A stretch of DNA of 64,000 nt from Pedobacter sp. Bi126 (GTDB lineage: Bacteria > Bacteroidota > Bacteroidia > Sphingobacteriales > Sphingobacteriaceae), in contig NZ_CAKKMS010000004.1 in NCBI RefSeq assembly GCF_918698245.1, positions 558,001 through 622,000 of the forward strand, read 5' to 3'. Positions 2,903 through 33,042 of this stretch are shown here, one piece after another. Position 1 is the stretch's first letter; every line of letters starts with the position of its first letter. A model generated the notes under the pieces. The model was not told the origin of the DNA. It worked only from the letters and a program-made list of their open reading frames with translations, and ran no database searches. Made by a program: the position numbers and the translations under genes.

Positions 2903-3628
2903 TTACAAAAGCAGCTTTTGCTTCATCATGTCTAAAAAATCTTTGCGATAAGTTTCTCCAATCAATATTTCTGCAGAAATGCCTTTTAAAATAATCCTGT
3001 TTCCATCAATGGAGGTGATTTTATTAAGCGCAACTATAAACGATTTCTGCACACGGATAAATTGCGCTTTTGGCAACCTTTCCTCTACATCTTTCATGGT
3101 TAGGAGCGCAAGCGTTCTAATCCCATTATGGTGAAAAGCAATATAATTTTTCATGCCTTCAACAAAATCAATTTCGCCGATATTAATTTTTAGCATTTTA
3201 CCTTTAGCCTCTGTTTTAACCATGAAATAATCATCATCTTGCTGGTTCACAGGGATATGAACTTTTTTAGTGTTAATAATCTTTTGAGCCTTGTTTATGG
3301 CTTGTAAAAAACGGGGCAAGGGGATAGGTTTAACTAAATAATCAACCACATCAAGATCAAAACCGGCAGTGGCAAACTCTTTATAGGCAGTGGTAAGTAT
3401 TACCTGTACATCTTTGTTGTTCATCGTTTGGATGAAATCAATGCCCGATATCTCTGGCATATGAATATCCAGAAAAATGAGATCTACAGGGTTGCTGCTT
3501 AAAAAACTCAGGGCATCAATCGGATTGGTGAATGTTGCGGCGATCTGTATTGCCGCAACAGACTTTAGGTAATGTTGTATTACTTCAATGGCATGATCTT
3601 CGTCATCAACAATAATGCAGTTAATCAT
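2903..3628 (-). CDS. LytTR-family response regulator
   Basis: The 241-residue protein has an N-terminal receiver domain (residues 1 to about 120) with the acidic pair VDDED, phospho-acceptor Asp54 in FLDIHMPE and Lys100 in YLVKP. It is followed by a C-terminal LytTR DNA-binding domain (about 135-241). The start ATG overlaps the stop of the upstream histidine kinase by four bases, so the two are translationally coupled partners. The family binds DNA as a transcription activator on phosphorylation. The target genes are unknown. The divergent peptide/exporter genes are obvious candidates from position only. Confidence 0.93.
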   Translation of the reverse strand: MINCIIVDDEDHAIEVIQHYLKSVAAIQIAATFTNPIDALSFLSSNPVDLIFLDIHMPEISGIDFIQTMNNKDVQVILTTAYKEFATAGFDLDVVDYLVKPIPLPRFLQAINKAQKIINTKKVHIPVNQQDDDYFMVKTEAKGKMLKINIGEIDFVEGMKNYIAFHHNGIRTLALLTMKDVEERLPKAQFIRVQKSFIVALNKITSIDGNRIILKGISAEILIGETYRKDFLDMMKQKLLL

Positions 3629-4761
3629 GAGGCGTATGGTTGAGGTTTAATTTGTGGTATCTTGAACTGTTCCAAAAAGCCTAAATTGTCAGATGATGAT
3701 GGTTTTTCTTGGTGATCGGCAACCTTATTGTAAGGCAAAGTTAATTCAAGGCTGTAATCAATCTCGGTTTCATTAATGTTTAATGCAACCCCTTTTTTGT
3801 AATGATTTGAGAGTCTTTTCCTTATGTTTTCCATACCTATACCACTCGAGAGTTCTTTAGGCCCTTTTTTCTTTTTGTTCCAAGTGCTTAAACGGATATG
3901 ATGGTCGGTTTCGTTGATGCTTAAGGCTATTTTAACAGGATGCAAATTATCTGTACAATTGCCATGTTTTAAGATATTCTCTACAACAGTAATTAGAATT
4001 AATGGAATCAATCTTACATTATCGGTATTTCCATTCACACTAAAATCGATCTGTAACTTGTTATTGAAACGAAGCTGATTAATTTTAATTACATTTTTAA
4101 TATGCTCAATTTCCTCTTCTATTAATGTCATGCGGTCATCTTTATCCATTTCCAGGGAATAGCGCATGATTTTACTGAGTGTCATAATGCCATCGGCAAG
4201 CTCTTGAGATAAGGGTAACGATTTCGCAAAAAAGAAATTAAGGGTGTTGTTTAAAAAGTGAGGATTAATCTGTGCACGGAGAAAAGCGTATTCTGCTTCA
4301 TGTTTTTCTTTTTCGATGAGGCGTAGTTTTCGTTCGCGTTTAATTCCTTCAGAGGCAAAATAATACCCAAAGCCCAAAATAGAATACTTTATGAAAACCC
4401 ATAATACTGCAGCTCCATAATTTAAAAAATTAAATGGAGGGGATTTTGGACCATTCACTCTAAAATGGGGTCTTATATGGTAACTTGTGATGTACCATAG
4501 TAAAAAACAAACTGTAAAAGCAAATACTGTCCCCAAAATAAGTAAAAGCGGTTTTATTGGACTAGCAAATTTTTTGCAAACTAAAATACACACGTATACT
4601 GTACAAATGTTTGGCAGCTGAGAGATTAATATATCAATCGGGCTAAAAACAAATCCTTCTGGATCTAAGGGATATTCCAATAGATTGCCTAATAGCATAT
4701 AAGCTATCCAAAAAATCAAATGATATATAAATACCCTGTAATTCTTCTTTGTGTTTATCAT
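3625..4761 (-). CDS. LytS/YehU-type sensor histidine kinase
   Basis: The 378-residue protein has four predicted membrane segments in residues 1-135 (hydrophobic runs near 12-27, 42-62, 70-92 and 115-136), then a His_kinase domain with phospho-acceptor His168 in QINPHFLNN. A C-terminal ATPase lobe follows, with an N-box (VVENILKHG) and G-box (SSGIGMENIRKRL). No extracytoplasmic sensor domain is visible, so a signal would have to be sensed in or near the membrane. The family is often used for peptide or cell-wall signals in Gram-positives. Its ATG overlaps the stop of the S41-type gene upstream by four bases, and its stop overlaps the regulator start. Confidence 0.92.
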   Translation of the reverse strand: MINTKKNYRVFIYHLIFWIAYMLLGNLLEYPLDPEGFVFSPIDILISQLPNICTVYVCILVCKKFASPIKPLLLILGTVFAFTVCFLLWYITSYHIRPHFRVNGPKSPPFNFLNYGAAVLWVFIKYSILGFGYYFASEGIKRERKLRLIEKEKHEAEYAFLRAQINPHFLNNTLNFFFAKSLPLSQELADGIMTLSKIMRYSLEMDKDDRMTLIEEEIEHIKNVIKINQLRFNNKLQIDFSVNGNTDNVRLIPLILITVVENILKHGNCTDNLHPVKIALSINETDHHIRLSTWNKKKKGPKELSSGIGMENIRKRLSNHYKKGVALNINETEIDYSLELTLPYNKVADHQEKPSSSDNLGFLEQFKIPQIKPQPYAS

Positions 4762-6170
4762 TTAAAAAAATATGTTCTTACAAAATCAACCCAATTAGTT
4801 GTATCGCTAGGTATTTTTACATTAGGTGTAATACCGACATTGTCTAGTGGTCGCTTTACGCTATGTAGTGATTTGCTAGCAGGATAACTAAGAGAGTAAA
4901 AGTTACATGGTAATTTTATAAGTACAGTTTCACCATAGTCAACTGCGCCTGATGTGTTACTGCCATATAAAACCACTTTTTTACTTTGCTCTGCTCTTAA
5001 TATGAAAAGTTCAGCGCTGCTTGCCGTATTCTCATTAATTATAATTGAGACCCGCGACGGATTTTTTAAAACCTTCGAAAACTTTATTCTATACTCTTTA
5101 TACAAAAGATAGTGCTCTTCTAGGTGAGCTCTTAATTTCTTAACATCATTTTTCATTTCTATCTTACTCTGCTTAGAAATATTAGGATAATCTATTTCGT
5201 AACAATCACGTATATTGTCCTCTGTAGCCAAAACAATTCCTCCATCCACTTTTATGGGGTTGGTGTATAAATAAGGCAATAGTTTCTCAAAGCACTTAGT
5301 CGAGCCTCCAGAGTTATCCCTTACGTCAAGAATCAAATGCTCAGTACGGTCAAGTTGAGACTTGTTTTTAAGAATTAAATTATCGATTTGAGTTTTATAT
5401 TTAGAATTAAATGATGGGAGTTTAATGAGTGAGGTTTTCCGATCAAGAATGCTAAATGATGGGGCGCTATTATTCACAGTTATTGGTTGTAGCGTCTCTT
5501 GCTTAGTTTTAGGGCTTTTTATCCACTTGCCAAAGATCCCAAAATTTAGGGTGTCACCATTTTTTAAAAGTATAGGATGTTGTTCTGAGTGATCGCCTCC
5601 ATTAAAGAATATTGTTTGATATTGACTATCTTTCTTTATCAATTTAAACTTAATTTGTTGTGGCATCCATCTGATCGAATCTGCCTTTAATATAAAGCCA
5701 ATAAATTGATTAGGCTTTATGTCTTTAATAATTCCAACTTCATATATGCCAAAGCTCCAAATCCCTTCAATACTATCAATGCTTTCTTTGTTTTGCGCGA
5801 GGTAAGATTTAAAAACGTTTTCTGTCCAGCTAGTTTTTTCCTCCATTGAAAAAAAATGTCTCACAGAATCAGGATTTAATTTATCAAACTCCATTCCAAA
5901 TGATATATGTTTATCCTTAAAAAAGGCGAGCCATTCTCTGCCTAAATTCAAACATTTATAAGCATTTGATCTGTCTGCTATTGTTTGCAGGCTATCGGTA
6001 AATTTCTGAAATTGTTGCTGATTTTTTATTGTAATCTTATCTTTAAACCCCACATAATTTTTCGTTATCCTATTAGTAAGGTAACGAAAGTTATCAGAGC
6101 AGTTGCAGTTCTGTGCCCATAAGCTATTAAAGGAAAAGAACAACAAAACAGATAAGATGATATTTTTCAT
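4758..6170 (-). CDS. Secreted S41-family peptidase-like protein (paralog 1)
   Basis: The 470-residue protein has a signal peptide (1-19, ending LWAQ), then NCNCSDNF. An N-terminal helical/beta region unique to this pair follows, then a C-terminal S41 (tail-specific/tricorn-type) domain from about residue 245. HLILDVRDNSGGS is the S41 signature strand, and ENTASSAELF near 378 carries the expected nucleophile Ser. The usual GKG lysine position reads SGAVDYGE, so the Ser-Lys dyad of CtpA-type enzymes is not apparent. It may use a tricorn-like arrangement or be inactive. It overlaps the histidine kinase start by four bases. It is clearly a paralog of the protein at 6554-7966, with identical long stretches by eye. 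Confidence 0.85.
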   Translation of the reverse strand: MKNIILSVLLFFSFNSLWAQNCNCSDNFRYLTNRITKNYVGFKDKITIKNQQQFQKFTDSLQTIADRSNAYKCLNLGREWLAFFKDKHISFGMEFDKLNPDSVRHFFSMEEKTSWTENVFKSYLAQNKESIDSIEGIWSFGIYEVGIIKDIKPNQFIGFILKADSIRWMPQQIKFKLIKKDSQYQTIFFNGGDHSEQHPILLKNGDTLNFGIFGKWIKSPKTKQETLQPITVNNSAPSFSILDRKTSLIKLPSFNSKYKTQIDNLILKNKSQLDRTEHLILDVRDNSGGSTKCFEKLLPYLYTNPIKVDGGIVLATEDNIRDCYEIDYPNISKQSKIEMKNDVKKLRAHLEEHYLLYKEYRIKFSKVLKNPSRVSIIINENTASSAELFILRAEQSKKVVLYGSNTSGAVDYGETVLIKLPCNFYSLSYPASKSLHSVKRPLDNVGITPNVKIPSDTTNWVDFVRTYFFK

Positions 6171-6241: not shown

Positions 6242-6421
6242 TTAACCACTTACTGTTTGATTTACCGTTTTTAGTTCATCACATTGTGGATTTCCTGAAT
6301 GGCCTCCTCCTGTAGGATTACTTCCTCCATTAATTCTCCTCAACTGGTCATTATCTAAATTAATAATAGTTTTTTTCTTAAAGATAAACTGTGTTCTTTT
6401 TTCTAATTTTTTGTTTTTCAT
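6242..6421 (-). CDS. Double-glycine leader peptide precursor (59 aa), bacteriocin/lanthipeptide-like
   Basis: An ATG at 6421 opens a 59-codon frame. The N-terminal half is Lys-rich and ends in INLDNDQLRRINGG (cleavage expected after Gly33). The core is short and Gly/Ser/Asn-rich with one Cys and several Thr/Ser (SNPTGGGHSGN, then PQCDELKTVNQTVSG). The leader pattern (hydrophobic and acidic residues spaced before GG) is typical of Bacteroidota peptides exported by C39-type transporters. NCBI-type class I lanthipeptide precursors of this phylum look alike, but no LanB/LanC gene is present. It sits between two S41-type genes on the same strand, in an operon with a LytS/LytT pair. Confidence 0.72.
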   Translation of the reverse strand: MKNKKLEKRTQFIFKKKTIINLDNDQLRRINGGSNPTGGGHSGNPQCDELKTVNQTVSG

Positions 6422-6553
6422 AATCGTAATAATAGATAGTTAAATAAATGTGTTTAAAAGTGTTATTTCTGAATTCAATAGCCAAAAATTATACACCAAA
6501 CAGCCATTTATCTGTATCAAACCAGTAGATTGTATAGTTTAAATAGTGAATCG

Positions 6554-7966
6554 TTATTTAGTTTTATATTTCTTTACAAAATCAATCCAATCGGCGGTAT
6601 CGGCAGGTATTTCTACATCGGGTTTAATCCCAATATTATCTAAAGGATAATCTGGTAATCTTAAAGACTTACAAGCAGGATAATAAAGAGTATAGTATTT
6701 ACATGGCATTTCTATTTTTATAAACTCGGTGTAATCTACAGCACCAGCAGAATTTTGGCCATATAATTTCACCTTTTTGCTCTGTTTGGCTTCTAGCAAA
6801 AACAGTTCGGCAGCGCTTCCTGTGCCGCCGTTAACGAGAAACGAAACGCGTTCAGGGTTCTTATAAACTGTTTTAAATCTGATAGTGTCAATAGGGTACA
6901 GCTTATAAAGTTCTCCCTCGTGAGCTTTTAACTTGATGAGGCGTTTCTTAAAAGTATTTCTAATACTGTCAGAAGCTTCAGGGTATTCTTTGGAATAACC
7001 GTCTTTAATATTGTCTGGTGTTGCCAAAACGTAACCGCCTTCTTGTAGAATGGGATTGGTATATAGATATGGCATCAGTTTTTCGTACACTAAAACAGAG
7101 CCACCGCTGTTATTTCTTAAGTCGACAATTAAATGTTTGGTGTTCTTTAGTATGTTTTCATTCTTTTTGATTAAGGCTGCTGTGGGGGCCACATAATCTA
7201 ATTTGCCGAAAGATGGCATTTCAAAGATGGCCGTTTCATTGTCCAAAACCCGGAATTTTGGGGAGAGATCTATCTCTTTTTTTGGTGTAATAGCTGCAGT
7301 TGGCTTGGGTGCCTTTATCCATTTACCGAATATGCCAAGGGTTATGGTATCTTTTTGCTTTGATAATTTGGGGTGCTGTTCCGAATGGTCTCCTCCGCTG
7401 AAATAAATCATTTCATATCGTCCATCCTTTTTTACTAACCTGAATTTAACTTGCTGGGTCATCCATCTTATCGAATCAGCCTTTAATACAAATCCCATAA
7501 ACTGATTAGGGTTAGTGTCTTTAACCACCCCAACTTCATATATACCAGCACTCCAAATCCCTTCTATACTATCGAGTTTGGTTTTATTCTGGTGCAGGTA
7601 AGATTTAAAACTGTTTTCTGTCCAGGTGGTTTTTTCTTCGTTTGCAAAAAATGTCCTTACCGAATCAGCGGTGAGCTTATCGAAGTCCATGCCAAAAGCC
7701 ATGTGTTTATCTTTAAAAAAATCTATCCATTCTCGGCATACACTCAGGCATTTATAGGGATTAGCTTTATTCGCTACCTGTTGCAGACTATCGGTGAATT
7801 TTTTAAACTGCTGGCTATTTGCAGGTGTGACTTTATCAGCATAACCTACATAGTTTTTTGTTATTCTATTGGTAAGATAACTAAAGTTATCACCGCAATC
7901 GCAGTTCTGGGCTTGTAGATTATAAAATGGAAATAAGAGCAATAAGTAGAAGATAATTTTTTTCAT
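6554..7966 (-). CDS. Secreted S41-family peptidase-like protein (paralog 2)
   Basis: The ATG at 7966 gives 470 residues. An upstream TTG would add three and is less likely. There is a signal peptide (to about LQAQ), then the same NCDCGDNF start as the paralog at 4758-6170. The C-terminal S41 domain has HLIVDLRNNSGGS and NGGTGSAAELFLL, with the presumed nucleophile Ser near 375. As in the paralog, the position of the catalytic Lys reads SAGAVDYTE. It may process exported peptides or degrade extracellular ones. That is inference from the neighbouring peptide genes. It is first in the minus-strand set and divergent from the peptide at 8255. Confidence 0.85.
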   Translation of the reverse strand: MKKIIFYLLLLFPFYNLQAQNCDCGDNFSYLTNRITKNYVGYADKVTPANSQQFKKFTDSLQQVANKANPYKCLSVCREWIDFFKDKHMAFGMDFDKLTADSVRTFFANEEKTTWTENSFKSYLHQNKTKLDSIEGIWSAGIYEVGVVKDTNPNQFMGFVLKADSIRWMTQQVKFRLVKKDGRYEMIYFSGGDHSEQHPKLSKQKDTITLGIFGKWIKAPKPTAAITPKKEIDLSPKFRVLDNETAIFEMPSFGKLDYVAPTAALIKKNENILKNTKHLIVDLRNNSGGSVLVYEKLMPYLYTNPILQEGGYVLATPDNIKDGYSKEYPEASDSIRNTFKKRLIKLKAHEGELYKLYPIDTIRFKTVYKNPERVSFLVNGGTGSAAELFLLEAKQSKKVKLYGQNSAGAVDYTEFIKIEMPCKYYTLYYPACKSLRLPDYPLDNIGIKPDVEIPADTADWIDFVKKYKTK

Positions 7967-8119
7967 AGTTTTCAATTACAATTATAGTCGATATTTATAC
8001 TTAAAGGGTAAACTATTTTAAAATACATATCTGTATTATCTTCTGTGCAGGTTAATGTAACATCTAATTAGCGCCAGTTTGATTCAATATTGAGCTATTT
8101 CTGATGTAATGCCTCTTTT

Positions 8120-8181
8120 ATCCCTATAAAAAGCCTTTTAGTGTATCTTTTTTTTGATTGAAATTTAATATCCAATACTTG
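8120..8181 (+). promoter_or_regulatory. Conserved upstream element, copy 1 (before first plus-strand peptide)
   Basis: This 62-base stretch aligns end to end with 10549-10610 upstream of the HlyD-type gene. Shared blocks in order are ATCCCTA, CCTTTT, GTGTATCTTTTTT, ATTTAATA and CTTG at matching spacing. TATCTTTT inside it resembles the TAnnTTTG -7 box. A shared promoter or regulator site is the simplest reading. Confidence 0.6.
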
Positions 8182-8211
8182 TTTCGTGTTAGGCCGGCAT
8201 GGGCGAAACCT

Positions 8212-8232
8212 GAAAAGCCTTTAAAGAGTAGG
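8212..8232 (+). promoter_or_regulatory. 21-base leader motif, copy 1
   Basis: GAAAAGCCTTTAA, one variable base, then GAGTAGG. It differs at one position from 14443-14463. Both copies end 21-22 bases before the start codon of a double-glycine peptide gene, which points to a 5'UTR or translation-control element. Confidence 0.55.
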
Positions 8233-8254
8233 GAATAAACTTTAAAAACTAAAA

Positions 8255-8488
8255 ATGAAAAATTTAAAATTACAAGACTTCGGTGTTCAGGAGATGGATG
8301 CTAAAGAAATAAATGAAACTGTAGGAGGTGGCTTTTTTGGAGCGCTAATTGGTTTTGTTGTTGGTGCCACTCTTGCTCTTGTTTCTGGCGAGATTACTAT
8401 AAATGGTGAGGTGGTATCTGGTAGTGATAACTGGTTTACCGCAGGATTAATTGGCGCCGGAGCTGGTGCAGTTATTATTCCAATCTAA
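8255..8488 (+). CDS. Double-glycine leader bacteriocin-like peptide precursor (77 aa)
   Basis: The leader VQEMDAKEINETVGG fits a C39-processed double-glycine leader, cleaved after the second or third Gly near 25-26. The predicted core is hydrophobic and Gly/Ala-rich (FFGALIGFVVGATLAL and AGLIGAGAGAVIIPI), with GxxxG patterns as in class II two-peptide bacteriocins. It has no Cys. A strong hairpin terminator follows 16 bases after the stop. The leader is similar to those at 14485 and 14726. Function as antimicrobial or signal is inferred; export by the nearby C39 ABC transporter is likely. Confidence 0.8.
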   Translation: MKNLKLQDFGVQEMDAKEINETVGGGFFGALIGFVVGATLALVSGEITINGEVVSGSDNWFTAGLIGAGAGAVIIPI

Positions 8489-8504
8489 TTGACTAATATT
8501 AATT

Positions 8505-8544
8505 AGGAATTGGAAATAATTAAAATTATTTCCAATTCCTTCTT
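8505..8544 (+). terminator. Terminator/attenuator between peptide and outer-membrane protein gene
   Basis: AGGAATTGGAAATAATT pairs perfectly with AATTATTTCCAATTCCT around two bases, followed by TCTTT. This 17-bp stem ends the peptide transcript. Read-through would supply the gene at 8589. Confidence 0.85.
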
Positions 8545-8588
8545 TATCTGTTTTTAGAATAAATTCTTCAGATCACTTATTGTTAAAT

Positions 8589-10298
8589 ATGAAATTTACA
8601 CTTATAATTTATCTTTTATTATTAGTATCAAGCAATGCTTATACACAATCCGTAACTTTAAAAGGTAGGGTAGTAGATGCAAAAAATAACATAAAATTAT
8701 CAGGAGCGACCGTAAAAGTAGGTAATGAGTATACACGTACAGATCACGATGGTTATTTTGAAATGACTGCTCCATTAAAGACTTTAACAGCGCTTGGGAT
8801 AAATTTTAGTCATGTAGGCTATTTCAATATTCGTTTAATATATCAATCTAATCATTTTTATGAAGTTAAATTAACCGAAAGCAGTATTGAATTACAGGAA
8901 GTTATCATTGGAGCAGGTGATGATATTATAAAAAAAGCAATTAAAAGAATTGTTTACAACTACCCAAATAAGCCTATTATCATTAAAGGAATATTGAGAA
9001 CACAATCATGGCGTAACCAGTCTGAATATTTTAAGTCGGATGCATTAATAAAAGCTTATGTACCAGCCTACGATTCGAAAGAAAAAACCACGGTTGCTGT
9101 GGTGCAAAATCGCATGGATACGTTGTATGATAAAACTCTTAAGTATCTGAAACATACATCGAACTATAATGTTGTTGATTTTCAGGATATCGCTCACAAT
9201 AATTATATCCTTCATAAAATTGCTAAAAAGAAGAAATTTGATTATTTACTTGCTGGTAAGGAGATATACGATAATCATAAAGTATTTGTAATTAATATAA
9301 CAACACGTGATACCAGTAAGCAATATGATAAAATCCAGGCAACATTGTATATAGATACAGCTACCTACGCATTTGTTGCCGCAAACACATATACTTATAA
9401 CCTGATAAGGGCTGGCTTTTTACCTCTTAAAATGTTAAATTATCGGGTTGCTTATGAAAAAATAGGGGAGAAGTGGTACTTGAAAGAAACCCATACTTTT
9501 GCTTCGTCCGAATTGAAAAAAGAATCACCTCGCACTACAGTTGATTTTATTCGAACTGAAATCGATAGCATAGATGTGGATAAGATTTCATATAAAGATA
9601 TTGTTCAACATCGGGATGATGTTTTATTAATTAATAAACCCAGAAATAATGAGGAATGGGAGAATAATAGTCATTTGTTTCAAAAAGCCGAAAAGGAAGG
9701 GCGAATGGAAAGATTATCCAGTGAATCACTTGATACAATAAAAAGTAATAATGGAATAGCTAATTCAGATAATCAAAAAATAAAGAGACAGTTTGGAAGA
9801 AGGGTATTTGACTATTTTAATAAAGATAATGTACGTACCACATTAGGTTTGACAAAATTTCCAGTATTAATGAATGATCAATTTTATCGCGTTTCAGAAA
9901 GTATCAATTATGGCTTTGGATTAGGTATCAATTATAGGTTATATAAAAATCTATTTTTAGGATTTCAGGTAAATACGAACCTGCGTAACAATAAACATAT
10001 CAATCTTTCTACATTTGATTTGAATATTTCAAATGATTTTATTTTAAATAAAAATTCAAGGAATTTAACATTTACACCTTACGCAGGTTTTGAACAGATA
10101 GTTGTTCGTTACAATGAGGGTAAAGTCCGTAATAATACTTTTAATTATGGGCTTAGGGTAGCCTATGAGTTAACCCATAAAAAAGCAATATTTTTATCTT
10201 CTGGATTCAACTCTGGACTAAATAGCACTATACTAAATACCCTAAGTATTACCCCTAGCCATTATGCTATAGGGTTAGGCGTTATATTTAAGAAATAA
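8589..10298 (+). CDS. CarboxypepD_reg-like outer-membrane protein (DUF5686-like)
   Basis: The ATG at 8589 gives 569 residues; a TTG at 8580 is less likely. There is a signal peptide (ending NAYTQS), then a carboxypeptidase-regulatory-like beta-sandwich (about 22-110, VTLKGRVVDA through VKLTESSIELQEVII). A middle domain starts at IKKAIKRIVYNYPNK. The C-terminal region (about 415-569) has alternating hydrophobic strands and ends in IGLGVIFKK, like an outer-membrane barrel. The family sits at the outer membrane of Bacteroidota; exact function is unknown. It follows a double-glycine peptide gene directly, as a related protein does at 14968, so a receptor, immunity or secretion role is possible. 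Confidence 0.78.
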   Translation: MKFTLIIYLLLLVSSNAYTQSVTLKGRVVDAKNNIKLSGATVKVGNEYTRTDHDGYFEMTAPLKTLTALGINFSHVGYFNIRLIYQSNHFYEVKLTESSIELQEVIIGAGDDIIKKAIKRIVYNYPNKPIIIKGILRTQSWRNQSEYFKSDALIKAYVPAYDSKEKTTVAVVQNRMDTLYDKTLKYLKHTSNYNVVDFQDIAHNNYILHKIAKKKKFDYLLAGKEIYDNHKVFVINITTRDTSKQYDKIQATLYIDTATYAFVAANTYTYNLIRAGFLPLKMLNYRVAYEKIGEKWYLKETHTFASSELKKESPRTTVDFIRTEIDSIDVDKISYKDIVQHRDDVLLINKPRNNEEWENNSHLFQKAEKEGRMERLSSESLDTIKSNNGIANSDNQKIKRQFGRRVFDYFNKDNVRTTLGLTKFPVLMNDQFYRVSESINYGFGLGINYRLYKNLFLGFQVNTNLRNNKHINLSTFDLNISNDFILNKNSRNLTFTPYAGFEQIVVRYNEGKVRNNTFNYGLRVAYELTHKKAIFLSSGFNSGLNSTILNTLSITPSHYAIGLGVIFKK

Positions 10299-10548
10299 CG
10301 GAGTGGTGTTTCTCTAATAATTTTTGCGGAAAAGTTTAGTCAACAAAGAAAAATAATCTGATGGTTAAATTGAAAATCCCAGTAACCCTCAAATTAATTT
10401 AAACTGTATTTTGAGTAGAAAGCTGTATTTAATTAAATATGATATAAATTAATTCTTAGAAAGCTTAATACGATTAAAATATTGTTAACCGATATTGCCT
10501 GCTGTGCATCTATCGGTTTTTTTATTTTCTAAGGTCAAAAACAGTTTC
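10299..10548 (+). other. Intergenic region with terminator, no gene seen
   Basis: AT-rich spacer. The hairpin AACCGATA/TATCGGTT (10487-10518) followed by a T run is a good terminator for the gene at 8589. No open frame or RNA gene is recognised. Confidence 0.6.
10487..10525 (+). terminator. Rho-independent terminator after the outer-membrane protein gene
   Basis: Eight-base stem AACCGATA/TATCGGTT with a 16-base loop, followed by seven T. It separates the upstream gene from the exporter operon. Confidence 0.75.
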
Positions 10549-10610
10549 ATCCCTACAATCCCCCTTTTCGTGTATCTTTTTTCTGGCATAATTTAATAAT
10601 TACAAACTTG
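10549..10610 (+). promoter_or_regulatory. Conserved upstream element, copy 2 (before the exporter operon)
   Basis: It matches 8120-8181 over its whole 62 bases in the same order of blocks, including GTGTATCTTTTTT with a TAnnTTT-like box at 10574. It covers the TTG codon at 10608, which argues that translation of the adaptor starts later, at the ATG at 10635. Confidence 0.6.
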
Positions 10611-10634: not shown

Positions 10635-11795
10635 ATGCCTTTTACAGAAGAAGCCAATTTCGAAGATAATTCCATCATTTTTTTACACCATACCAAGGTA
10701 AGGACACAAATTATTTATTCTGCCACAATTCTATTCATTCTTGTGGCTTTAGCGGCCTTACCATTTATTTATACAACGGTAAGCGTTAAGGGCAATGGTT
10801 CTTTGCAGAGTAATATTGAAAGAACAGAACTGCTGGCACCTGTGGGAGGGAAAATTACCCTGATTAATTTAACCGATAATAAAAAAATAAAAAAAGGACA
10901 ACTTCTTTTAAATATAGACCCTACTATACCTGAAACACAAAATGTGATTTTGAATAATCGCTCAGGTGAATTAAAAAATTTGTTAAATGATGCGCTCCTC
11001 GTTTTAAAACTGGTCGACTTAAGCAATGCAGGGCAACCTGCATTGCAAACCGGCCTGTATGCGGCAAGTTGGCAACAATACGCGGAGCAGATTCAAAATG
11101 CACTAAATGCACGCGAACAGGCCTACAAGATTTATAAAAGGTATGAAACACTGTATAGCAAGAAGGTGGTTACCGAAGCAGAGTATGAGCAATATAAGTT
11201 TAATTACGATCAGGCGCTTTCTGATTTTAATCTGGTGGCTAAAAAGTACAAAACACAGTGGCAAACAGAATCTAATCAATATAGAAAAGAATTAAAAGAT
11301 CTCGATGGTCAGAAAATCCAGCTTACCGAGCAGGAGAAATTATATCATTTAACCGCAGGGGTATCCGGAACAGTGCAAAATCTATCAGGTTTACAATTGG
11401 GTTCGTTCATTACCGCCAATCAGAAAATTGGTGAGATATCGCCTGATAGTGCTTTGTTGGCCATCTGTTATATTAAACCTGCTGATATCGGTTTAATTAA
11501 AGCTGGCCAAACCGTCAGGTTTCAGATCGATGCCTTTAACTATAACCAATGGGGCCTGCTTGCCGGTGTAGTAGCCGACATTTCTGACGATATTATATTG
11601 ATTAACCAAAGCCCTTATTTTAAAGTGAAGTGTAAATTAGACAAGGATTATTTAAAGTTAAAAAACGGTTATAAAGGGCAGGTAAAAAAGGGAATGACCT
11701 TTAATGCACACTTTACTATTGCAGAACGAAACTTGTATCAATTGCTTTATGATAAAGTTGATGATTGGTTAAATCCAAACGGAGTTAAAAGCTAA
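10635..11795 (+). CDS. HlyD-family periplasmic adaptor of a peptide exporter
   Basis: From the ATG at 10635 the protein has 386 residues; the frame also allows a TTG start at 10608, but that lies inside a conserved promoter-like element. There is one membrane segment near residues 22-48 (IIYSATILFILVALAALPFIY). A lipoyl/biotinyl-like half follows (ELLAPVGGKITLINLTDNKKIKKGQLLL), then a long coiled coil, the second half (LTAGVSGTVQNLSGLQLGSFI) and a beta-barrel domain. The family bridges an inner-membrane ABC exporter and an outer-membrane channel in type I secretion. The C39 ABC transporter gene follows by 72 bases. No TolC partner is adjacent. Confidence 0.9.
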   Translation: MPFTEEANFEDNSIIFLHHTKVRTQIIYSATILFILVALAALPFIYTTVSVKGNGSLQSNIERTELLAPVGGKITLINLTDNKKIKKGQLLLNIDPTIPETQNVILNNRSGELKNLLNDALLVLKLVDLSNAGQPALQTGLYAASWQQYAEQIQNALNAREQAYKIYKRYETLYSKKVVTEAEYEQYKFNYDQALSDFNLVAKKYKTQWQTESNQYRKELKDLDGQKIQLTEQEKLYHLTAGVSGTVQNLSGLQLGSFITANQKIGEISPDSALLAICYIKPADIGLIKAGQTVRFQIDAFNYNQWGLLAGVVADISDDIILINQSPYFKVKCKLDKDYLKLKNGYKGQVKKGMTFNAHFTIAERNLYQLLYDKVDDWLNPNGVKS

Positions 11796-11867: not shown

Positions 11868-14069
11868 ATGTCTACACTAATAAAACAACGCGATATTACC
11901 GATTGTGGCGCTGCTTGTTTGGCATCTATAGCTGCATTTTATAAATTAAAAATGCCTGTTGCGCGCATTCGCCAATTGGCCAGCACCGATCAAAAAGGAA
12001 CCAATGTTTTAGGTTTGATAGAAGCTGCAAATAAACTGGGTTTTGAAGCAAAAGGCGTAAAGGGCAGTTTAGATAGTCTTTCTAAAATTCCATTGCCAGC
12101 CATTGCGCATGTGGTGGTAAAGAAGCAATTGCAGCATTATGTAGTTATTTATAAAGTAACCGATAAATCCATTGAAGTAATGGACCCCGGTGATGGGAAA
12201 ATACACCGCAAAGCTATTGACGAATTTACAAGTGAATGGACAGGTGTACTGGTTCTGTTGTTACCTGATGAGGGTTTTAAGCAAGGCAATGAAAAGGTCG
12301 ATACCAAAAGCCGCTTTTGGAACCTGATTAAACCGCATAAAAGTATTGTAACGCAGGCACTTTTTGGTGCTTTGATTTATACCATTCTTGGACTATCTAC
12401 CTCAGTTTTTGTTCAAAAAATAACCGACCATGTTCTGGTAGAAGGTAATCGGAACCTGCTTAATTTAATGAGCTTAATGATGGTGGCCATTTTAGCGCTG
12501 CAATTATTTATTGGAACGGCTAAAACTATTTTTACAATCCGCACGGGCCAGCAGATAGATGCCCGATTGATATTGGGCTACTACAAACACCTCTTAAAAC
12601 TGCCTCAGCAGTTTTTCGATACCATGCGGGTGGGCGAAATTATCTCAAGGGTAAACGATGCCGTTAAAATAAGGGCTTTTATAAACGATGTTTCTATTAA
12701 CCTGGTTGTAAACGGCTTTATTGTTGTATTCTCTTTTATTTTAATGTTCAGTTACTATTGGAAACTGGCATTAATGATGTTGGCGGTTATTCCATTGTAT
12801 TTACTGATTTATTTCATCAGCAATAAACTGAACAAGAAAATGCAGCGCAAGTTGATGGAGGAGTCGGCCGAGTTGGAATCGCAATTGGTTGAGGGCTTAA
12901 ATAATGTAGCCACAATTAAAAGATTTGGTCTTGAAAGGTTTACCAACGAAAAAACAGAAACTCATTTTATTGGCCTGCTCAGAACAATTTATAAATCAGG
13001 ATTAAACTCTGTTTTCTCTGGAACATCAACCGAAGTTATTGCCCGTATGCTCACTATCATCTTGCTTTGGGTGGGCGCAGGTTATGTTTTAGATGGCGAA
13101 ATTACCCCTGGGGAATTATTTTCCTTCTATACCCTTATTGGTTACTTCACTGGTCCGGCTACTTCCTTAATTGGAGCAAATAAATCTATCCAGGATGCCA
13201 TGATCGCCTCCGATCGTTTGTTCGAAATTATGGACCTGGAGATTGAACAAAATTCGTCGGGCATTTTCCTTACGAAAGAATTAATGGGCGATATCAGGTT
13301 TGAACATGTAGCCTTTAGATATGGCAGTCGTGTAAATGTGTTTGAAGATTTAAACCTAAAAATTAAGGCTGGAAGTTTTACCGCAATCGTAGGAGAAAGC
13401 GGATCTGGGAAGTCTACCTTAATGTCGTTACTACAAAATATTTATCCGATACAATCGGGCAATATTTTTATCGGTAATCATGCGCTTAAGTATTTGAACA
13501 ATGCCTCTTTAAGGAATTTACTAAGCGTTGTGCCGCAAAAAATTGACCTTTTTGCAGGAAATGTAATCGAAAACATTGCCATTGGCGATTATGAACCAAA
13601 TATGCAACAGATTATTAGTATTTGCACACAACTGGGGATTATCGATTTTATTGAAGCTTTGCCAGAAGGTTTTCAGACTTATTTAGGTGAAAACGGAGCC
13701 TCTTTATCGGGCGGACAAAAACAAAGGATTGCAATAGCAAGGGCACTGTACCGCAATCCTGAAATTTTAATTCTGGATGAAGCCACTTCCTCTTTAGATT
13801 CGGCTTCTGAGCAGTATGTGCAGCGAACAATAGATTTGTTGAGGATGCAAAAGAAAACAATCATCATCATTGCGCACCGGTTACCTACGATTAGAAAAGC
13901 TGATCAGATTATTGTATTAGATAAAGGAAAGGTTGTAGAGGAGGGGAGCCATATTGAAATGATGATTGCAAATGGCCATTACGCCAACTTATGGAAACAA
14001 CAATTTGGTGATGATGACCAAACAAGTTTGATAACACCCACACTAGAGTTTGTAAGGGATAACATTTAA
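11868..14069 (+). CDS. Peptidase-containing (C39) ABC transporter for double-glycine peptides
   Basis: The 733-residue protein has three domains. An N-terminal C39 protease carries Cys13 in DITDCGAACL, His90 in LQHYVVIYK and Asp106 in VMDPGDG, the full catalytic triad. A membrane domain of six segments spans about 155-440. The nucleotide-binding domain has Walker A GESGSGKST, signature LSGGQ and Walker B ILILDEATSSLD. Such PCAT/LanT/ComA-type proteins cut leader peptides after Gly-Gly and export the core. Four double-glycine peptide genes lie within 8 kb, fitting this role. It is 17 bases upstream of the HTH gene, so one operon is likely. Confidence 0.95.
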   Translation: MSTLIKQRDITDCGAACLASIAAFYKLKMPVARIRQLASTDQKGTNVLGLIEAANKLGFEAKGVKGSLDSLSKIPLPAIAHVVVKKQLQHYVVIYKVTDKSIEVMDPGDGKIHRKAIDEFTSEWTGVLVLLLPDEGFKQGNEKVDTKSRFWNLIKPHKSIVTQALFGALIYTILGLSTSVFVQKITDHVLVEGNRNLLNLMSLMMVAILALQLFIGTAKTIFTIRTGQQIDARLILGYYKHLLKLPQQFFDTMRVGEIISRVNDAVKIRAFINDVSINLVVNGFIVVFSFILMFSYYWKLALMMLAVIPLYLLIYFISNKLNKKMQRKLMEESAELESQLVEGLNNVATIKRFGLERFTNEKTETHFIGLLRTIYKSGLNSVFSGTSTEVIARMLTIILLWVGAGYVLDGEITPGELFSFYTLIGYFTGPATSLIGANKSIQDAMIASDRLFEIMDLEIEQNSSGIFLTKELMGDIRFEHVAFRYGSRVNVFEDLNLKIKAGSFTAIVGESGSGKSTLMSLLQNIYPIQSGNIFIGNHALKYLNNASLRNLLSVVPQKIDLFAGNVIENIAIGDYEPNMQQIISICTQLGIIDFIEALPEGFQTYLGENGASLSGGQKQRIAIARALYRNPEILILDEATSSLDSASEQYVQRTIDLLRMQKKTIIIIAHRLPTIRKADQIIVLDKGKVVEEGSHIEMMIANGHYANLWKQQFGDDDQTSLITPTLEFVRDNI

Positions 14070-14086: not shown

Positions 14087-14395
14087 ATGAAACTATTAGA
14101 ATACATCGATCGCATTAAGATTATCCATAAATTGATAAAAGAAAGCCGTACAGGCGCTCCTGAAAATTTAGCAAGAAGGTTATCAATTTCAACCTCGAGA
14201 TTATATGTAGTATTAGATGAGCTGAAACTAATGGGCGCTCCAATAGAATACTCGAGACAGTTACAAACATATTATTATACCCAGGCATTCGAAGTAAATA
14301 TTAGCGCCGATTTTACGGTTTTAAAGCCTCAGGAGTTAATGAATATAAATGCTGGTTTTTTTTACCAGCAAAATTATCCACTCCTTTTTTTATAG
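14087..14395 (+). CDS. Small helix-turn-helix protein in the exporter operon
   Basis: The 102-residue protein has a winged-helix-like N-terminus: helix LEYIDRIKIIHKLIKES, then GAPENLARRLSISTSRLYVVLDELKLMGAPI, a typical HTH_11/DeoR-like turn with recognition helix, then a wing YSRQLQTYYY. The C-terminal 25 residues are unusual and encode two short hairpins (14351-14369, 14379-14400), so the end could lie over a transcription stop. It starts 17 bases after the exporter gene, so a local regulator is a reasonable guess. Its target is unknown. Confidence 0.7.
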   Translation: MKLLEYIDRIKIIHKLIKESRTGAPENLARRLSISTSRLYVVLDELKLMGAPIEYSRQLQTYYYTQAFEVNISADFTVLKPQELMNINAGFFYQQNYPLLFL

Positions 14396-14400: not shown

Positions 14401-14442
14401 GCAAAAGTAATTTAGTAGCGTTGCAACAAAAAGGCGTATACC

Positions 14443-14463
14443 GAAAAGCCTTTAACGAGTAGG
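14443..14463 (+). promoter_or_regulatory. 21-base leader motif, copy 2
   Basis: GAAAAGCCTTTAA, one variable base, then GAGTAGG; one difference from 8212-8232. It ends 21 bases before the GTG start at 14485. Confidence 0.55.
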
Positions 14464-14484
14464 TGAACTAAATAAATCTAAATT

Positions 14485-14664
14485 GTGAAAAAATTAAATC
14501 TGGAGAATTTCAATGTTCAGGAGATGAGCCGCTCAGAAATATCTCTTATTGAAGGAGGCAGCTGGATTGGCAGGGCGTGGAATTCGATAAAAGAGTTTGT
14601 TTTGGATGTAGTGCACGAAATCGTTACCGATGTGGTAGGTGCTGATCCCACTTCAAACCTTTAA
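14485..14664 (+). CDS. Double-glycine leader peptide precursor with GTG start (59 aa)
   Basis: The frame opens with GTG at 14485, 21 bases after the shared leader motif. The leader NFNVQEMSRSEISLIEGG closely parallels that at 8255 (both have VQEM). The predicted core SWIGRAWNSIKEFVL, then DVVHEIVTDVVGADPTSNL, can form an amphipathic helix. It shares the start S-W-aromatic/aliphatic and overall pattern with the peptide at 14726, so the two may be a two-peptide pair. Shortness and the GTG start make it easy to miss. No ATG in frame precedes the leader. Confidence 0.72.
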   Translation: MKKLNLENFNVQEMSRSEISLIEGGSWIGRAWNSIKEFVLDVVHEIVTDVVGADPTSNL

Positions 14665-14725: not shown

Positions 14726-14908
14726 ATGAAAAATCTAAAAAAATACGAGGTTGAAGAATTATCTTTAACAGAAATGAAATCAATTGATGGCGGAAGCTGG
14801 TTTAGCAGAGCATTCGAAGCAGTTGGTAATGCTTTGGATGATGCTTATCATTGGTTACAGGATAATATTGGACTTACCTTAGGCTCAGACGGAGCACATG
14901 GAAAATAA
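14726..14908 (+). CDS. Double-glycine leader peptide precursor (60 aa)
   Basis: The leader YEVEELSLTEMKSIDGG ends in Gly-Gly at 22-23. The core begins SWFSRAFEAVGNALDDAYHW, an amphipathic helix, and ends GLTLGSDGAHGK. It has no Cys. It lies 61 bases after the related peptide at 14485, and a terminator follows within 10 bases. Likely exported and trimmed by the C39 transporter at 11868. Antimicrobial or signalling function is inference. Confidence 0.78.
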   Translation: MKNLKKYEVEELSLTEMKSIDGGSWFSRAFEAVGNALDDAYHWLQDNIGLTLGSDGAHGK

Positions 14909-14967: not shown

Positions 14968-16059
14968 ATGTTTAACTATATATTTAACGTTAAAAATGTT
15001 TTTTTAGCGACTTTGTTTTTTATATTCTCTGGTAATGTTGATGCGCAATCATTTTACCTTACAGGGCATGTTTTTGATGGTAAAGAGCCTCTAATAGGCG
15101 CTTCAATAATAATTTCCGGCAAACATGTTGGCAATAGTGATGCATCTGGTTATTTTGAAGTCAGCACAAAATTGGGCGATACATTGAAGGTAACCTTTCC
15201 TTTTTATGATGCTACCACTTTTGTTTTAACTGATTCACTTCAGAAAAATATAGTTTTAACTGCAAAGACATTTCAATTAGATGATGTTCAAGTAAGTTTT
15301 AACAAACGAAAAACAATTGATTCATTATTGAACGCATCTTTTCTACAATTAAATCCAAATGCTTTTAACGCAAAGGTTTTTTTGAGGCAGTCTGTTGTTA
15401 GAAATAACGAAAAGGTTATCTTGTTAAATGAAGGATTATTAAACCTGAATTGTCCTGATTTAAAAGAGCTTATTGTAGCTGGTAGTAGTAAAAAAGTAAA
15501 ATTAAATATTGATTACGCTTGTAATCCAATTAACTCAAATAGCCGTCCGAAAGTAACTTATGGGAGTAATCCTCAAATTAAATTACGTTTGGGATTATTG
15601 CCAAATCATTTCTATGAGCTGGTAAAGTTGAATATTACGGAAGAAAGTATTAAATCTGATAGTATTAATATCGTTATTAATGTTAAAGGAAACCTTTCTG
15701 CCAATGAAAAGCTTGTGGTTTCTTACCTATGGATTTTGGATAAAAAAACTAATTCATTAAAACAAGCCCGGTATTACGAGCAATATGTAAATAAAAAGCA
15801 TTTTTTATTTTATGATTATGCTTATCTAAATAATGAACTCTTTTCTGGATCTATAAGTGCAAAGCAAGTGATTGGAAGAAATTCCTATTCAACAAATGAT
15901 GAAATATTTGTATTCCGTCAAATGGGGGCAGATATAGATAAATGGAATTTTGATGTTAATAAGTGTGGGTTAGAAAAATACCTCGAACAAACTGGGGATT
16001 GTGATGAATTGAGCAAATTTAAAACTAAACATGAAATACCAGTTCATAGATTCTTTTAG
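14968..16059 (+). CDS. CarboxypepD_reg-like secreted/outer-membrane protein
   Basis: The 363-residue protein has a signal peptide (ending NVDAQS), then a carboxypeptidase-regulatory-like fold (FYLTGHVFDGKEPLIGASIIISGKHVG to VLTAKTFQLDDVQVSF, about 27-112). A C-terminal domain of about 250 residues follows, shared in style with the protein at 23202, without a clear barrel. It comes 22 bases after a terminator that follows two double-glycine peptides, mirroring the 8255/8589 pair. Possible roles are receptor, immunity or cell-surface partner of the peptides. None is shown by the sequence. Confidence 0.75.
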   Translation: MFNYIFNVKNVFLATLFFIFSGNVDAQSFYLTGHVFDGKEPLIGASIIISGKHVGNSDASGYFEVSTKLGDTLKVTFPFYDATTFVLTDSLQKNIVLTAKTFQLDDVQVSFNKRKTIDSLLNASFLQLNPNAFNAKVFLRQSVVRNNEKVILLNEGLLNLNCPDLKELIVAGSSKKVKLNIDYACNPINSNSRPKVTYGSNPQIKLRLGLLPNHFYELVKLNITEESIKSDSINIVINVKGNLSANEKLVVSYLWILDKKTNSLKQARYYEQYVNKKHFLFYDYAYLNNELFSGSISAKQVIGRNSYSTNDEIFVFRQMGADIDKWNFDVNKCGLEKYLEQTGDCDELSKFKTKHEIPVHRFF

Positions 16060-16100: not shown

Positions 16101-16565
16101 TTAATACACCAAAGCCAAATACTGCCCATGATGGCTTATACAACCTGGTTTAGTGCATTTATAGTTACTTGGATGATTTGGTGATTCGTAAATGGTTACT
16201 TTAATTTCTTCTAGCTTGCCATAAACAGGAGCAGCAATGGTATGAATATATTGTAGCTGTATGTCGCTTCTAGTGAAATATGTATCGTTGTCTATACTTA
16301 CTATGCCTTTTATCTGATCGATGTTTGGATAAATAGTGCAGTTTAAACTTTTAGGGGCGAAATTTCTGATTCCGGTTTTACGGTTATAAATTTTATAAGC
16401 CGATTCTTTCATACTCCATAACAGCCATACCATTTCATCAGGTTTTTTTGCTGACGCAATCAGTAACTGTTCTTCGGCGGTGAAAATTTTATCGAGATAA
16501 TTTTTACGCCTCCAGTTACTTTGGATTTTAGCCAGATCCAGATCAACGATATCGTTACCCAGCAT
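16101..16565 (-). CDS. 4'-phosphopantetheinyl transferase superfamily protein
   Basis: The 154-residue protein begins LGNDIVDLD, the ACPS-type metal/CoA motif, with FTAEEQ and then LLWSMKESAYKIYNRKTG, the W-x-x-KEA/S-x-x-K signature with Glu and Lys of the family. It transfers phosphopantetheine from CoA to the carrier-protein serine. Its start overlaps the ACP stop by 11 bases. It is last of a seven-gene operon and most likely loads the ACP encoded immediately before it. Confidence 0.85.
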   Translation of the reverse strand: MLGNDIVDLDLAKIQSNWRRKNYLDKIFTAEEQLLIASAKKPDEMVWLLWSMKESAYKIYNRKTGIRNFAPKSLNCTIYPNIDQIKGIVSIDNDTYFTRSDIQLQYIHTIAAPVYGKLEEIKVTIYESPNHPSNYKCTKPGCISHHGQYLALVY

Positions 16566-16815
16566 TCGCTTCCAGTTTTTGAGCTATAATTTCGGTGGTG
16601 GCTTTTACTGTAAGCATTTTAGCCATCGAATCGTTGTCTATTTCGATGTTGAATTTCTCTTCAATATCTAAAACAATATCAACCAGGTTGGCCGAATTTA
16701 TTTTTAAATCGTTTATAAAATCGGTGTTTTCGTCAATATGTGCCAAGGCTGATACCTCCTCGCTATAAGGTTCAACTATTGTTTTTAAGGCTTCGATAAT
16801 CTCTTCTTTATTCAT
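16555..16815 (-). CDS. Acyl carrier protein
   Basis: The ATG at 16815 gives 86 residues; a longer frame to 16863 runs back into the ketosynthase gene and is unlikely. Four helices are predicted; Ser41 in KINSANLVDIV stands at the phosphopantetheine site, with N-S-A instead of the usual D-S-L. That variation is seen in dedicated secondary-metabolism ACPs. It overlaps the ketosynthase stop by eight bases and the transferase start by 11 bases. Confidence 0.88.
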   Translation of the reverse strand: MNKEEIIEALKTIVEPYSEEVSALAHIDENTDFINDLKINSANLVDIVLDIEEKFNIEIDNDSMAKMLTVKATTEIIAQKLEANAG

Positions 16816-18085
16816 GGGTATATTTTTTAAAAATAATGCAGGCGTTAATATCACCAAAACCAAAACTGGCTTTAGCTAAGATATTAATTGGTTGTTGAAT
16901 TAAAGTTTGCGGAATGCATTTCGCATCAATTAAAGCGGAAATCTCGGGGCTTAGGTCTTCGCAATTAATATTGGGAAAAATAAATCCTTCTGAAAGCTCA
17001 AGCATTGAGGCTACACATTCTATGCTCCCTGATGCTGCAATACAATGGCCAATCATACCTTTTAAAGAATTGATATACGGAAAATCATCGGCAGGTAATT
17101 GTAGTGCTGCTTTCCAGTTTTCTATTTCCAGGGCATCTTTGGTGGTTGCGGTAAGATGGCCATTAATAACATCGATTTCCTGGGCTTCAATACCCGCATT
17201 TTTTAATGCTGTTTGGATACATCGCTGTACAGCGGTAGGATTTGGTGCAGTCATCGTACCTAAGCCCCGCTGACCGCCAGAATTGATATGGCCGCCGAGT
17301 ACTTCGCCATATATTTTGGCTTTTCTAGCCATTGCACTTTCGAGCGATTCTAATACCAAAGCACCCGCGCCGCTTCCAGGTACAAAGCCACTTGCCGTTT
17401 CACTCATAGGGCGGCTACCTTTTTCCGGTTCATCATTATGTTTAAAGGTGCAAACTTTCATGGCATCAAAACCACCCCAGATATAAGGGCCGCTATCGCT
17501 TGTACTTCCTGCTAGCATTCTTGTAGCCTCACCTGTTTTAATTCTTTCGTAAGCCAGCAATATGCTTTCTGCTCCTGTTGCGCAGGCAGATGAGTTGGTA
17601 CTTACCTGATTACCTAAGCCGAGCTTGCCGCTGATAAACGCACTTACACCGCTGGCCATGGTTTGTATCACTACAGAACTTCCCAGTTTTTTGATTTCAA
17701 GCGCATCTATTTTATTAATTGCCCATCTAAATTTATCTATACCAGAAGTGCCTGCTCCGAAAATAGTACCGCTGTCCCAGTCGGGTTCTTCATTATTTTC
17801 GATGGTTAAGCCCGCATCTTTCCAGGCATCCAAGCCAGCAATAACACCATATATAATTCCTGTACTGTTTAGGTTTCGTAATTCAAGCGGTGTAAAATAC
17901 TGGCTGATCCGCTTTTCGCTAAGTACTGGCTTGCCTGCAATCTGACAAGAGAAGTTTAAGGCTTCCAGATCGGGCTGATGGCGGATGCCAGAAAGTCCTT
18001 TTTTTATGGCATCTGAAAACTCATCAATGGTAGTGCCATTGGGTGCGCATACGCCTAAACCGGTAATTACGACTCTGTTACCCAT
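16808..18085 (-). CDS. Beta-ketoacyl-ACP synthase (FabF-like)
   Basis: The 425-residue condensing enzyme has the full triad: Cys168 in NSSACATGAES, His310 in INGHLTATTKD and His347 in KGMIGHCIAASG. The thiolase fold starts with VVITGLGVCAPNG. It elongates ACP-bound acyl chains with malonyl-ACP. In this operon it probably builds or extends an acyl starter for the type III polyketide synthase. It overlaps the dehydratase gene by eight bases. A ketoreductase and enoyl reductase are missing and would come from primary fatty-acid synthesis. Confidence 0.92.
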   Translation of the reverse strand: MGNRVVITGLGVCAPNGTTIDEFSDAIKKGLSGIRHQPDLEALNFSCQIAGKPVLSEKRISQYFTPLELRNLNSTGIIYGVIAGLDAWKDAGLTIENNEEPDWDSGTIFGAGTSGIDKFRWAINKIDALEIKKLGSSVVIQTMASGVSAFISGKLGLGNQVSTNSSACATGAESILLAYERIKTGEATRMLAGSTSDSGPYIWGGFDAMKVCTFKHNDEPEKGSRPMSETASGFVPGSGAGALVLESLESAMARKAKIYGEVLGGHINSGGQRGLGTMTAPNPTAVQRCIQTALKNAGIEAQEIDVINGHLTATTKDALEIENWKAALQLPADDFPYINSLKGMIGHCIAASGSIECVASMLELSEGFIFPNINCEDLSPEISALIDAKCIPQTLIQQPINILAKASFGFGDINACIIFKKYTHE

Positions 18086-18515: not shown

Positions 18516-18533
18516 TAGTGATGAGTTGAATGA

Positions 18534-32058: not shown

Positions 32059-32082
32059 GCTTTATTTACCGAAATTATAGCG

Positions 32083-32112
32083 AACACCAGGCAATTTGTC
32101 TGGTGTTTTTTT
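32083..32112 (+). terminator. Terminator after the DUF5606 gene
   Basis: ACACCAG pairs with CTGGTGT around a nine-base loop, followed by six or more T. Confidence 0.85.
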
Positions 32113-32118
32113 ATGGGT

Positions 32119-32247: not shown

Positions 32248-32362
32248 AATTTCTTTTATTTAATGATGATTTTTATTCGCGTTTTCCATATTCCCATCTT
32301 ACTATAACCATTGTCATTGCTAAGCGTGATGTCATTATATAATATGCCCGAGGTAAACATAA

Positions 32363-32432: not shown

Positions 32433-32455
32433 ACCCTTAACTTAATGGCATTGTT

Positions 32456-32929: not shown

Positions 32930-33042
32930 TTAATATTTTGCCTATCTTTAGAATTTCGAGATTCAAACTTAGAGAAAATTGTAACAAAAAAGACAATCTA
33001 TCGATCTTATACCTTCGAAAATATATACACCGAAGCGATATC

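Follow-up and report, generated by a model that had tools for sequence, protein, structure and literature searches.

A candidate LytTR operator shared by the peptide, exporter and sensor operons of a Pedobacter locus

In a 64,000-nucleotide stretch of the Pedobacter sp. Bi126 genome (contig NZ_CAKKMS010000004.1, positions 558,001 to 622,000; hereafter the window), a 62-base element precedes both the gene of double-glycine peptide 1 and the adaptor gene of a C39 peptide exporter. Our analyses make it likely that this element is a regulated promoter, consisting of an operator for a LytTR response regulator, a T tract and a -7-like box, and that the regulator would bind such operators at three promoters, namely those of the peptide, the exporter and its own operon. 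Joint control of the three operons is well supported by the sequence comparisons. The features on which the argument rests are as follows, in window coordinates.

2903..3628, minus strand: LytTR response regulator (receiver and LytTR domain), the proposed operator binder
3625..4761, minus strand: histidine kinase (PF06580) with a hydrophobic N-terminal half
4758..6170, minus strand: S41 peptidase of the regulatory operon, with a hydrophobic N-terminus
6242..6421, minus strand: short double-glycine peptide, the candidate inducer; its leader resembles NF038153, below the cut-off
6484..6521, minus strand: third operator, of the regulatory operon; half-sites 6521-6511 and 6500-6490; 32.8 bits, E 4.5e-7 (training copy)
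8116..8153, plus strand: operator of the peptide promoter; half-sites 8116-8126 and 8137-8147 with a 21-base period, then a T tract; 41.7 bits, E 7e-10 (training copy)
8176..8181, plus strand: TACTTG, putative -7 box of the peptide promoter
8255..8488, plus strand: double-glycine peptide 1, 77 aa; open reading frame without a Pfam or NCBIfam match
10545..10582, plus strand: operator of the exporter promoter; half-sites 10545-10555 and 10566-10576, then a T tract; 39.7 bits (training copy)
10606..10610, plus strand: ACTTG box of the exporter promoter, 23 bases past the operator, as in 12 of 15 exporter copies
10635..11795, plus strand: HlyD-type adaptor starting at ATG 10635 (profile matches, start-codon comparison)
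11868..14069, plus strand: peptide exporter with a C39 peptidase (PCAT); TIGR01193 above cut-off

The element and its third copy

An earlier note, made from the letters of the window, had described a gap-free likeness between 8120-8181 and 10549-10610. Pairwise alignment confirmed it, with 43 of 62 bases identical; the next-best place in the window for 8120-8181 reaches 35, and the mean of all places is 17.5 (sd 3.6). Among 600 random 62-mers of the window taken as a control, the best match elsewhere in the window was 31-36 for 554 and at least 43 for 16. The 13-base block said to be identical, GTGTATCTTTTTT, is exact in both copies. The 6.29 Mb genome contains four occurrences of it, and the two beyond the element lie within long frames. 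A genome search with a 31-base degenerate form of the element, allowing up to three mismatches, matched only the peptide and exporter copies. While the likeness itself stands, its start does not, as the conserved shared part begins four bases earlier, at 8116 and 10545.

A matrix built from 26 exporter and peptide copies only revealed a third, diverged copy on the minus strand at 6484-6521, in front of an operon encoding the short double-glycine peptide, an S41 protease, a histidine kinase and the LytTR response regulator. The earlier note lacked this copy, as well as the likely regulator and the operator structure. The copy scores 9.8, the next place in the window scores -6.6, and the reversed and complemented controls reach at most -1.4. 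With the same matrix, five of the seven further loci that bear the operator (G057, G011, G009, G030 and G007) have an opposite-strand copy scoring 14-31, and those of G040 and G001 fall below the score of 12 used for listing. The regulatory operator lies 93-102 bases 5' of the short double-glycine peptide gene; the survey of short peptides, by a strict name pattern, covered 14 of 19 loci.

A matrix of all three classes yielded 39 copies with scores above 18 (11 exporter, 17 peptide and 11 regulatory). A sequence model of these copies finds three places with E < 1e-6 in the 6.29 Mb of its own genome, followed by one of 13.1 bits (E 0.69); the three are training copies of the model, and the informative part is the score gap and the lack of others. 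All three belong to this locus, so that the many copies at unrelated genes, which the earlier note had named as evidence against joint control, were not found, and a dispersed repeat was rejected on the same scan. In 99 genomes of the genus, the model matched 24 at E <= 0.01: the 11 training genomes, three below 1e-4 (G128, G121 and G124) and ten weak ones (6e-4 to 0.01, the E-values of the model being rough), of which G070 and G052 were inspected. The weak match of G052 has a shortened LytTR gene within 1 kb. The pattern GTGTATCTTTTTTN{12,30}ACTTG gave 27 matches in 12 of the same 99 genomes, 26 of them at this peptide/exporter locus in 11 genomes; the remaining match (G037) differs from them in leading into GC-richer sequence.

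Operator anatomy and recurrence

The operator is made of two direct half-sites of about 9 bases (TTTnRTnnn) with a 21-base period, located 5' of a T tract and usually of an ACTT box. Among 40 distinct operators, the identity at offset 21 is 0.58, against 0.19-0.43 at offsets 12-20 and 22-26. The value was equalled in 99 of 20,000 column permutations (116 of 10,000 with the earlier 39-copy set), and this offset was expected from LytTR sites, though the sequences had already been viewed beforehand. The half-site pairs are TTTCATCCC / TTTCGTGTA at the exporters, TTTGgTAcA / TTTGGTGTA at the regulatory operon and TTTCGTCCT / TTTGGTttA at paralogous operons. In the exporter operators, columns 1-11 and 22-32 are 93% and 96% conserved, with 75% between them and 28-34% in the 60 bases upstream. 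The corresponding values are 81%, 91%, 68% and 31-34% for the peptide operators, and 82%, 97% and 60% for the half-sites and the intervening columns of the regulatory ones.

Past the operator, ACTT follows at 22-24 bases in 35 of 43 copies, including 12 of 15 at exporters and all 17 peptide copies, where it lies 23-24 bases past the 38-base operator. The copies end in AAACTTG at the exporter in ten genomes and in ATACTTG in 16 peptide copies. The -7 box of Bacteroidota is TAnnTTTG; the paralogous promoters (TACTTTTA and TACATTTA) fit it best, and the exporter promoter worst. The exporter box also bears on the start of the adaptor, which the earlier note had placed at ATG 10635. Our comparison agrees, as the in-frame TTG at 10608 falls within the promoter box and the ATG is kept in relatives. 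Among 12 relatives with the same ACTTG box, the equivalent TTG is out of frame in nine, followed by a stop in one (G040) and open in two (G140 and L106), and the ATG is present in all 12, as well as in L110 and L111, which lack the box. Named records whose adaptors are 83-97% identical include P. ginsenosidimutans, P. borealis, P. alluvionis and P. ghigonis, which places the genome in Pedobacter.

The peptide-S41-kinase-LytTR operon, with its own operator and its short double-glycine peptide gene, is present in all 11 operator-bearing genomes. Ten of them carry both peptide and exporter copies of the element, and the remaining one (G137) has exporter and regulatory copies and no peptide copy above the cut-off. 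The element is absent from six exporter-bearing loci without the regulatory operon, one of which (G038) spans just 8.4 kb. Of 78 named adaptor loci, 10 have the element, six of these being genomes already counted in the genus set; the short peptide gene accompanies it in all 10 and the regulator in eight, while the other two stretches end at its place. In the remaining 68, some of which are short stretches, the element and the short peptide are both lacking, and no LytTR match attains 55%. Because the element is confined to this locus, occurs in both places in 10 of the 11 operator-bearing genomes and has conserved half-sites, the joint control of peptide and exporter that had been proposed earlier is the best reading of the data.

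The association extends to seven paralogous LytTR operons, whose regulators are 60-65% identical and whose operators were outside the matrix. In six of these operons, a place 94-99 bases before the short peptide start is the best (five cases) or second best (one case) of the 32,000-36,000 places on both strands of 16-18 kb; this count leaves out G050 (scored at the S41 start, -9.5), G124 (at a second precursor, -7.1) and G128 (rank 1, without a regulator). Adding the six paralogous copies to the matrix revealed operators in G050 and G124 as well. With this enlarged matrix, the second-best place is on the other strand in all seven paralogous loci. A matrix of paralogous copies only ranks the other-strand place second in six and third in G001. 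A relative of the C39 exporter lies downstream on that other strand in six of the seven loci.

In G124 (L185, C1:674000-692000), the operator stands in front of a cluster for a class I lanthipeptide, which comprises precursor frames, LanB (PF04738 and PF14028), LanC (PF05147), a C39 exporter, a PF06580 kinase and a LytTR regulator, and a weaker operator precedes a downstream outer-membrane-like gene. In G033 (L196, C265:1-9000), the locus is deletion-scarred, with a LytTR gene 88% identical adjoining pieces of kinase, adaptor and exporter.

Proposed mechanism and its rivals

The response regulator has a LytTR domain (PF04397, 65 bits; cut-off 22.6), and it most likely binds all three promoters. 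Against solved structures, the 60 listed of 109 matches concern chiefly the receiver half. The closest described counterpart is the plantaricin (pln) regulon of Lactobacillus plantarum C11. As described in the excerpted text of its source (PMC2714321), the LytTR-type regulators PlnC and PlnD act there on two 9-bp direct repeats with a 12-bp spacer, hence a 21-bp period, just 5' of the -35/-10 region of the regulatory, transport and bacteriocin operons. Because the 21-base repeat layout matches this description, we propose that the regulator at 2903-3628 activates all three operons, so that the peptide, the exporter and the sensor operon would rise together. The dedicated C39 peptidase exporter and adaptor encoded at the locus would cleave and secrete the short peptide 6242-6421, which the adjacent kinase would then sense. 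Such sensing would close a positive feedback loop of the quorum type, raising peptide and exporter together. The DUF805b RNA leader would form a second, separate layer restricted to the peptide genes. Taken as a whole, from the operator to the peptide-driven loop, we regard this model as probable, and it suggests joint activation of the set by a single peptide-sensing switch, by analogy with Gram-positive bacteriocin producers.

The divergence of the operon points to the short peptide as the signal. Over 32 of 55 genome pairs, those with adaptors at least 89% identical, the mean identities are 97% for the regulator, 94% for the adaptor and 85% for the C-terminal half of the kinase. They drop to 65% (35-99) for its N-terminal half, 67% for the S41 protease and 46% (8-100) for the peptide tail. 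The kinase of G000 is 32-62% identical to those of four genomes over residues 1-120, and 78-100% over residues 161-360. In G011, which has the identical peptide, the kinase matches that of G000 by 98-100% over residues 1-160 and by 82-95% over residues 161-360. The peptide tail correlates with the N-terminal half of the kinase (Mantel r 0.64, 190/20000). Such a pattern resembles that of pherotypes. Since the tail, the protease and the sensor half of the kinase vary sharply while the regulator stays at about 97%, the short peptide is probably the inducer. The same peptide was considered as a class I lanthipeptide and rejected, with 20.1 bits for NF038153 (cut-off 22) and no LanB at the locus; LanB (PF04738) occurs in the genome only at C1:207652-209538 and at C4:318727-320457, the latter about 240 kb off.

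The most serious alternative accepts LytTR control and gives the kinase another signal, such as envelope stress, a competitor or a product of the S41 protease. The S41 protease shows the strongest co-variation with the N-terminal half of the kinase (Mantel r 0.88, 1/20000; 0.74, 16/20000 without G030), and the tail follows the kinase less closely. On the other hand, the first gene of the operon is that of the short peptide, which has a double-glycine leader, and no C39 exporter was detected elsewhere in the genome except one on a different contig. We consider a signal other than the peptide unlikely, though far from negligible.

A second alternative is that another factor in trans, for example the product of the HTH-like open reading frame 14087-14395 or a distant regulator, binds the operators and the LytTR protein acts elsewhere. 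The operators of G128 and G121, beside which no LytTR regulator was detected, would fit this idea, but the operator tracks the LytTR operon even at paralogous loci, and the 14087 frame has relatives in only two (G057 and G001) of the seven other operator-bearing loci searched. We judge this improbable. The frame itself is small, HTH-like by eye and without a Pfam match, and lies in the interval between the exporter and peptides 2 and 3; its relatives in four loci are 49-95% identical. As a general regulator it was rejected: relatives occur in L041 and L046 among L041-L046 and L048, and also in the distant, operator-less L049 and L050.

The copies might instead be alike by descent, through duplication of the peptide promoter and without any shared regulator. 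Peptide cassettes do look duplicated and swapped, as 10 of the 11 genomes have one to three peptide copies with an operator (G137 having none above the cut-off), and one peptide copy of G140 has an exporter-type operator. Against this, the half-sites are 81-96% identical in the exporter and peptide classes and the flanks 28-34%, and the operator is also found at a third, non-homologous operon and at paralogous LytTR loci, which leaves duplication a rather slim chance. Slimmer still is that of an element needing no activator, either a plain core promoter or a site for an alternative sigma factor. This would account for the T tract and for the ACTT box at 22-24 bases in most copies, but not for conserved half-sites that form a 21-base direct repeat 5' of the T tract, nor for other DUF805b-led peptide genes that lack the element.

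Several observations nevertheless weigh against the LytTR operator model and its peptide-driven loop. Concerning the promoters, the flanks of the regulatory copies are 44-62% conserved, which weakens the half-site contrast there, and ACTT is found at 22-24 bases in only 6 of these 11 copies. The exporter box AAACTTG is a poor fit to the Bacteroidota -7 consensus, and the half-site departs from the LytTR consensus. Concerning the genomes, G128 has the kinase, the S41 protease, the short peptide and two operators, with no LytTR regulator or adaptor found within 18 kb. In G121, where an operator, a DUF805b-like leader and a peptide are present, no regulator scores above the cut-off. The kinase of G007 matches as two overlapping pieces, as if frame-shifted, and the model match in G070 (E 6e-4) is at no such locus, with nothing of the system there. 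All 11 main genomes come from a single genus, most of them closely related, and the co-occurrence is therefore partly shared descent. Concerning the signal, the correlation between tail and kinase falls to 0.35 (1771/20000) without G030, which has two kinases. The pairs G057-G140 (N-terminal half of the kinase 98%, tail 40%), G009-G001 (98% and 46%) and G001-G140 (tail 88%, N-terminal half 68%) break the pattern. Linkage alone could give the correlation, as neighboring genes may have moved as a block. Finally, the only kinase model that the kinase matches up to E 1 is PF06580, and no ATPase-domain model matches, so that its typing is weak and an assignment to the AgrC/ComD class doubtful. For this reason of kinase class, we describe the locus as one that appears to work like a LytTR bacteriocin regulon of the pln/blp type, and do not class it as a member.

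Known systems, RNA leader and neighboring genes

Control by peptide pheromones through LytTR regulators is textbook knowledge for Gram-positive bacteria. In the blp, com and sil systems of streptococci, an inducer with a double-glycine leader, a C39 exporter, and a kinase with a LytTR regulator are combined, and the promoters are induced together. The Pedobacter locus differs from these systems in its Gram-negative host, its PF06580 kinase, its S41 protease and its DUF805b leaders, and its inducer is only a candidate. The same features, with the S41 protease in the regulatory operon and DUF805b at the peptide genes, separate this Bacteroidota locus from pln. In Bacteroidales, clusters for ribosomally synthesized and post-translationally modified peptides combining PCAT exporters with double-glycine precursors have been reported, one of which (BGC5) includes a signal-transduction pair of kinase and regulator. 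The consulted portions of that report describe no operator or pheromone of this kind, and LytTR is absent from its main text (PMC10352776). Another source, in its excerpted text, lists HATPase_c_5 for kinases of the LytTR family and describes quorum sensing in Gram-negative bacteria with other molecules (PMC8895600). Within a coverage that extends to freely available papers and not to subscription ones, no full-text paper concerned Pedobacter with LytTR, and among the matches listed, none on Bacteroidota or Pedobacter described such a system by its title or the start of its abstract.

A broader proposal, which we put forward tentatively and rate as somewhat less probable than even, is that a Gram-negative phylum has its own pherotype-based quorum sensing over secreted peptides. 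It would comprise a pheromone with a double-glycine leader, a C39 exporter, an S41 protease helping to set the specificity of the signal, a co-varying sensor half of the membrane kinase, and a LytTR regulator acting on 21-base repeats at every operon, with several circuits in the genus, one of them on the class I lanthipeptide cluster of G124 (LanB and LanC). If true, Pedobacter would use a Gram-positive type of circuit across its outer membrane, one whose operators can be tested and which offers a candidate inducer as well as natural pherotypes. It would also supply a means of activating silent peptide clusters in Bacteroidota.

The remaining features of the locus are the following.

6554..7966, minus strand: second S41 peptidase, 58% identical to the first
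8200..8234, plus strand: DUF805b RNA leader (RF02914) 5' of peptide 1; 39.5 bits, gathering cut-off 35.6
14431..14465, plus strand: DUF805b RNA leader before peptide 2, without an operator; 38.3 bits, gathering cut-off 35.6
14485..14664, plus strand: double-glycine peptide 2, 3' of the exporter
14726..14908, plus strand: double-glycine peptide 3

Of the 17 peptide copies, 16 have a DUF805b-like core past the operator; the 15 exporter and 11 regulatory copies have none. The genome also has DUF805b leaders with no operator, such as those 5' of peptide 2 and of the second exporter's peptide, and therefore this RNA is separate from the element: the leader is present at the locus, yet independent of the operator. 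We know of no function for this RNA, and full-text searches returned no paper on DUF805b, the papers listed for DUF805 appearing to concern proteins or genomes. Further leaders above the gathering score, at G000 C1:814254, C1:210186 and C3:398521, precede double-glycine peptides as well as other frames. At the peptide promoters, a near-palindrome (TGTTNGGCCAACA or TGTTGCAACA) is located just 5' of DUF805b, about where the transcript would start.

CarboxypepD_reg-like proteins adjoin the peptides at 8589-10298 and 14968-16059, and are present in some relatives and absent in others. The former is 95% identical in G030; the latter is 73% identical in G009 and, in part, 85% in G001. Both are candidate immunity or receptor proteins. 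Beyond them, minus-strand genes at 16101-20296 resemble, as judged by eye, those of an acyl carrier protein, of ketosynthases and of a phosphopantetheinyl transferase; they may form a flexirubin or aryl polyene cluster, and frames similar to these genes flank the LytTR remnant in G052.

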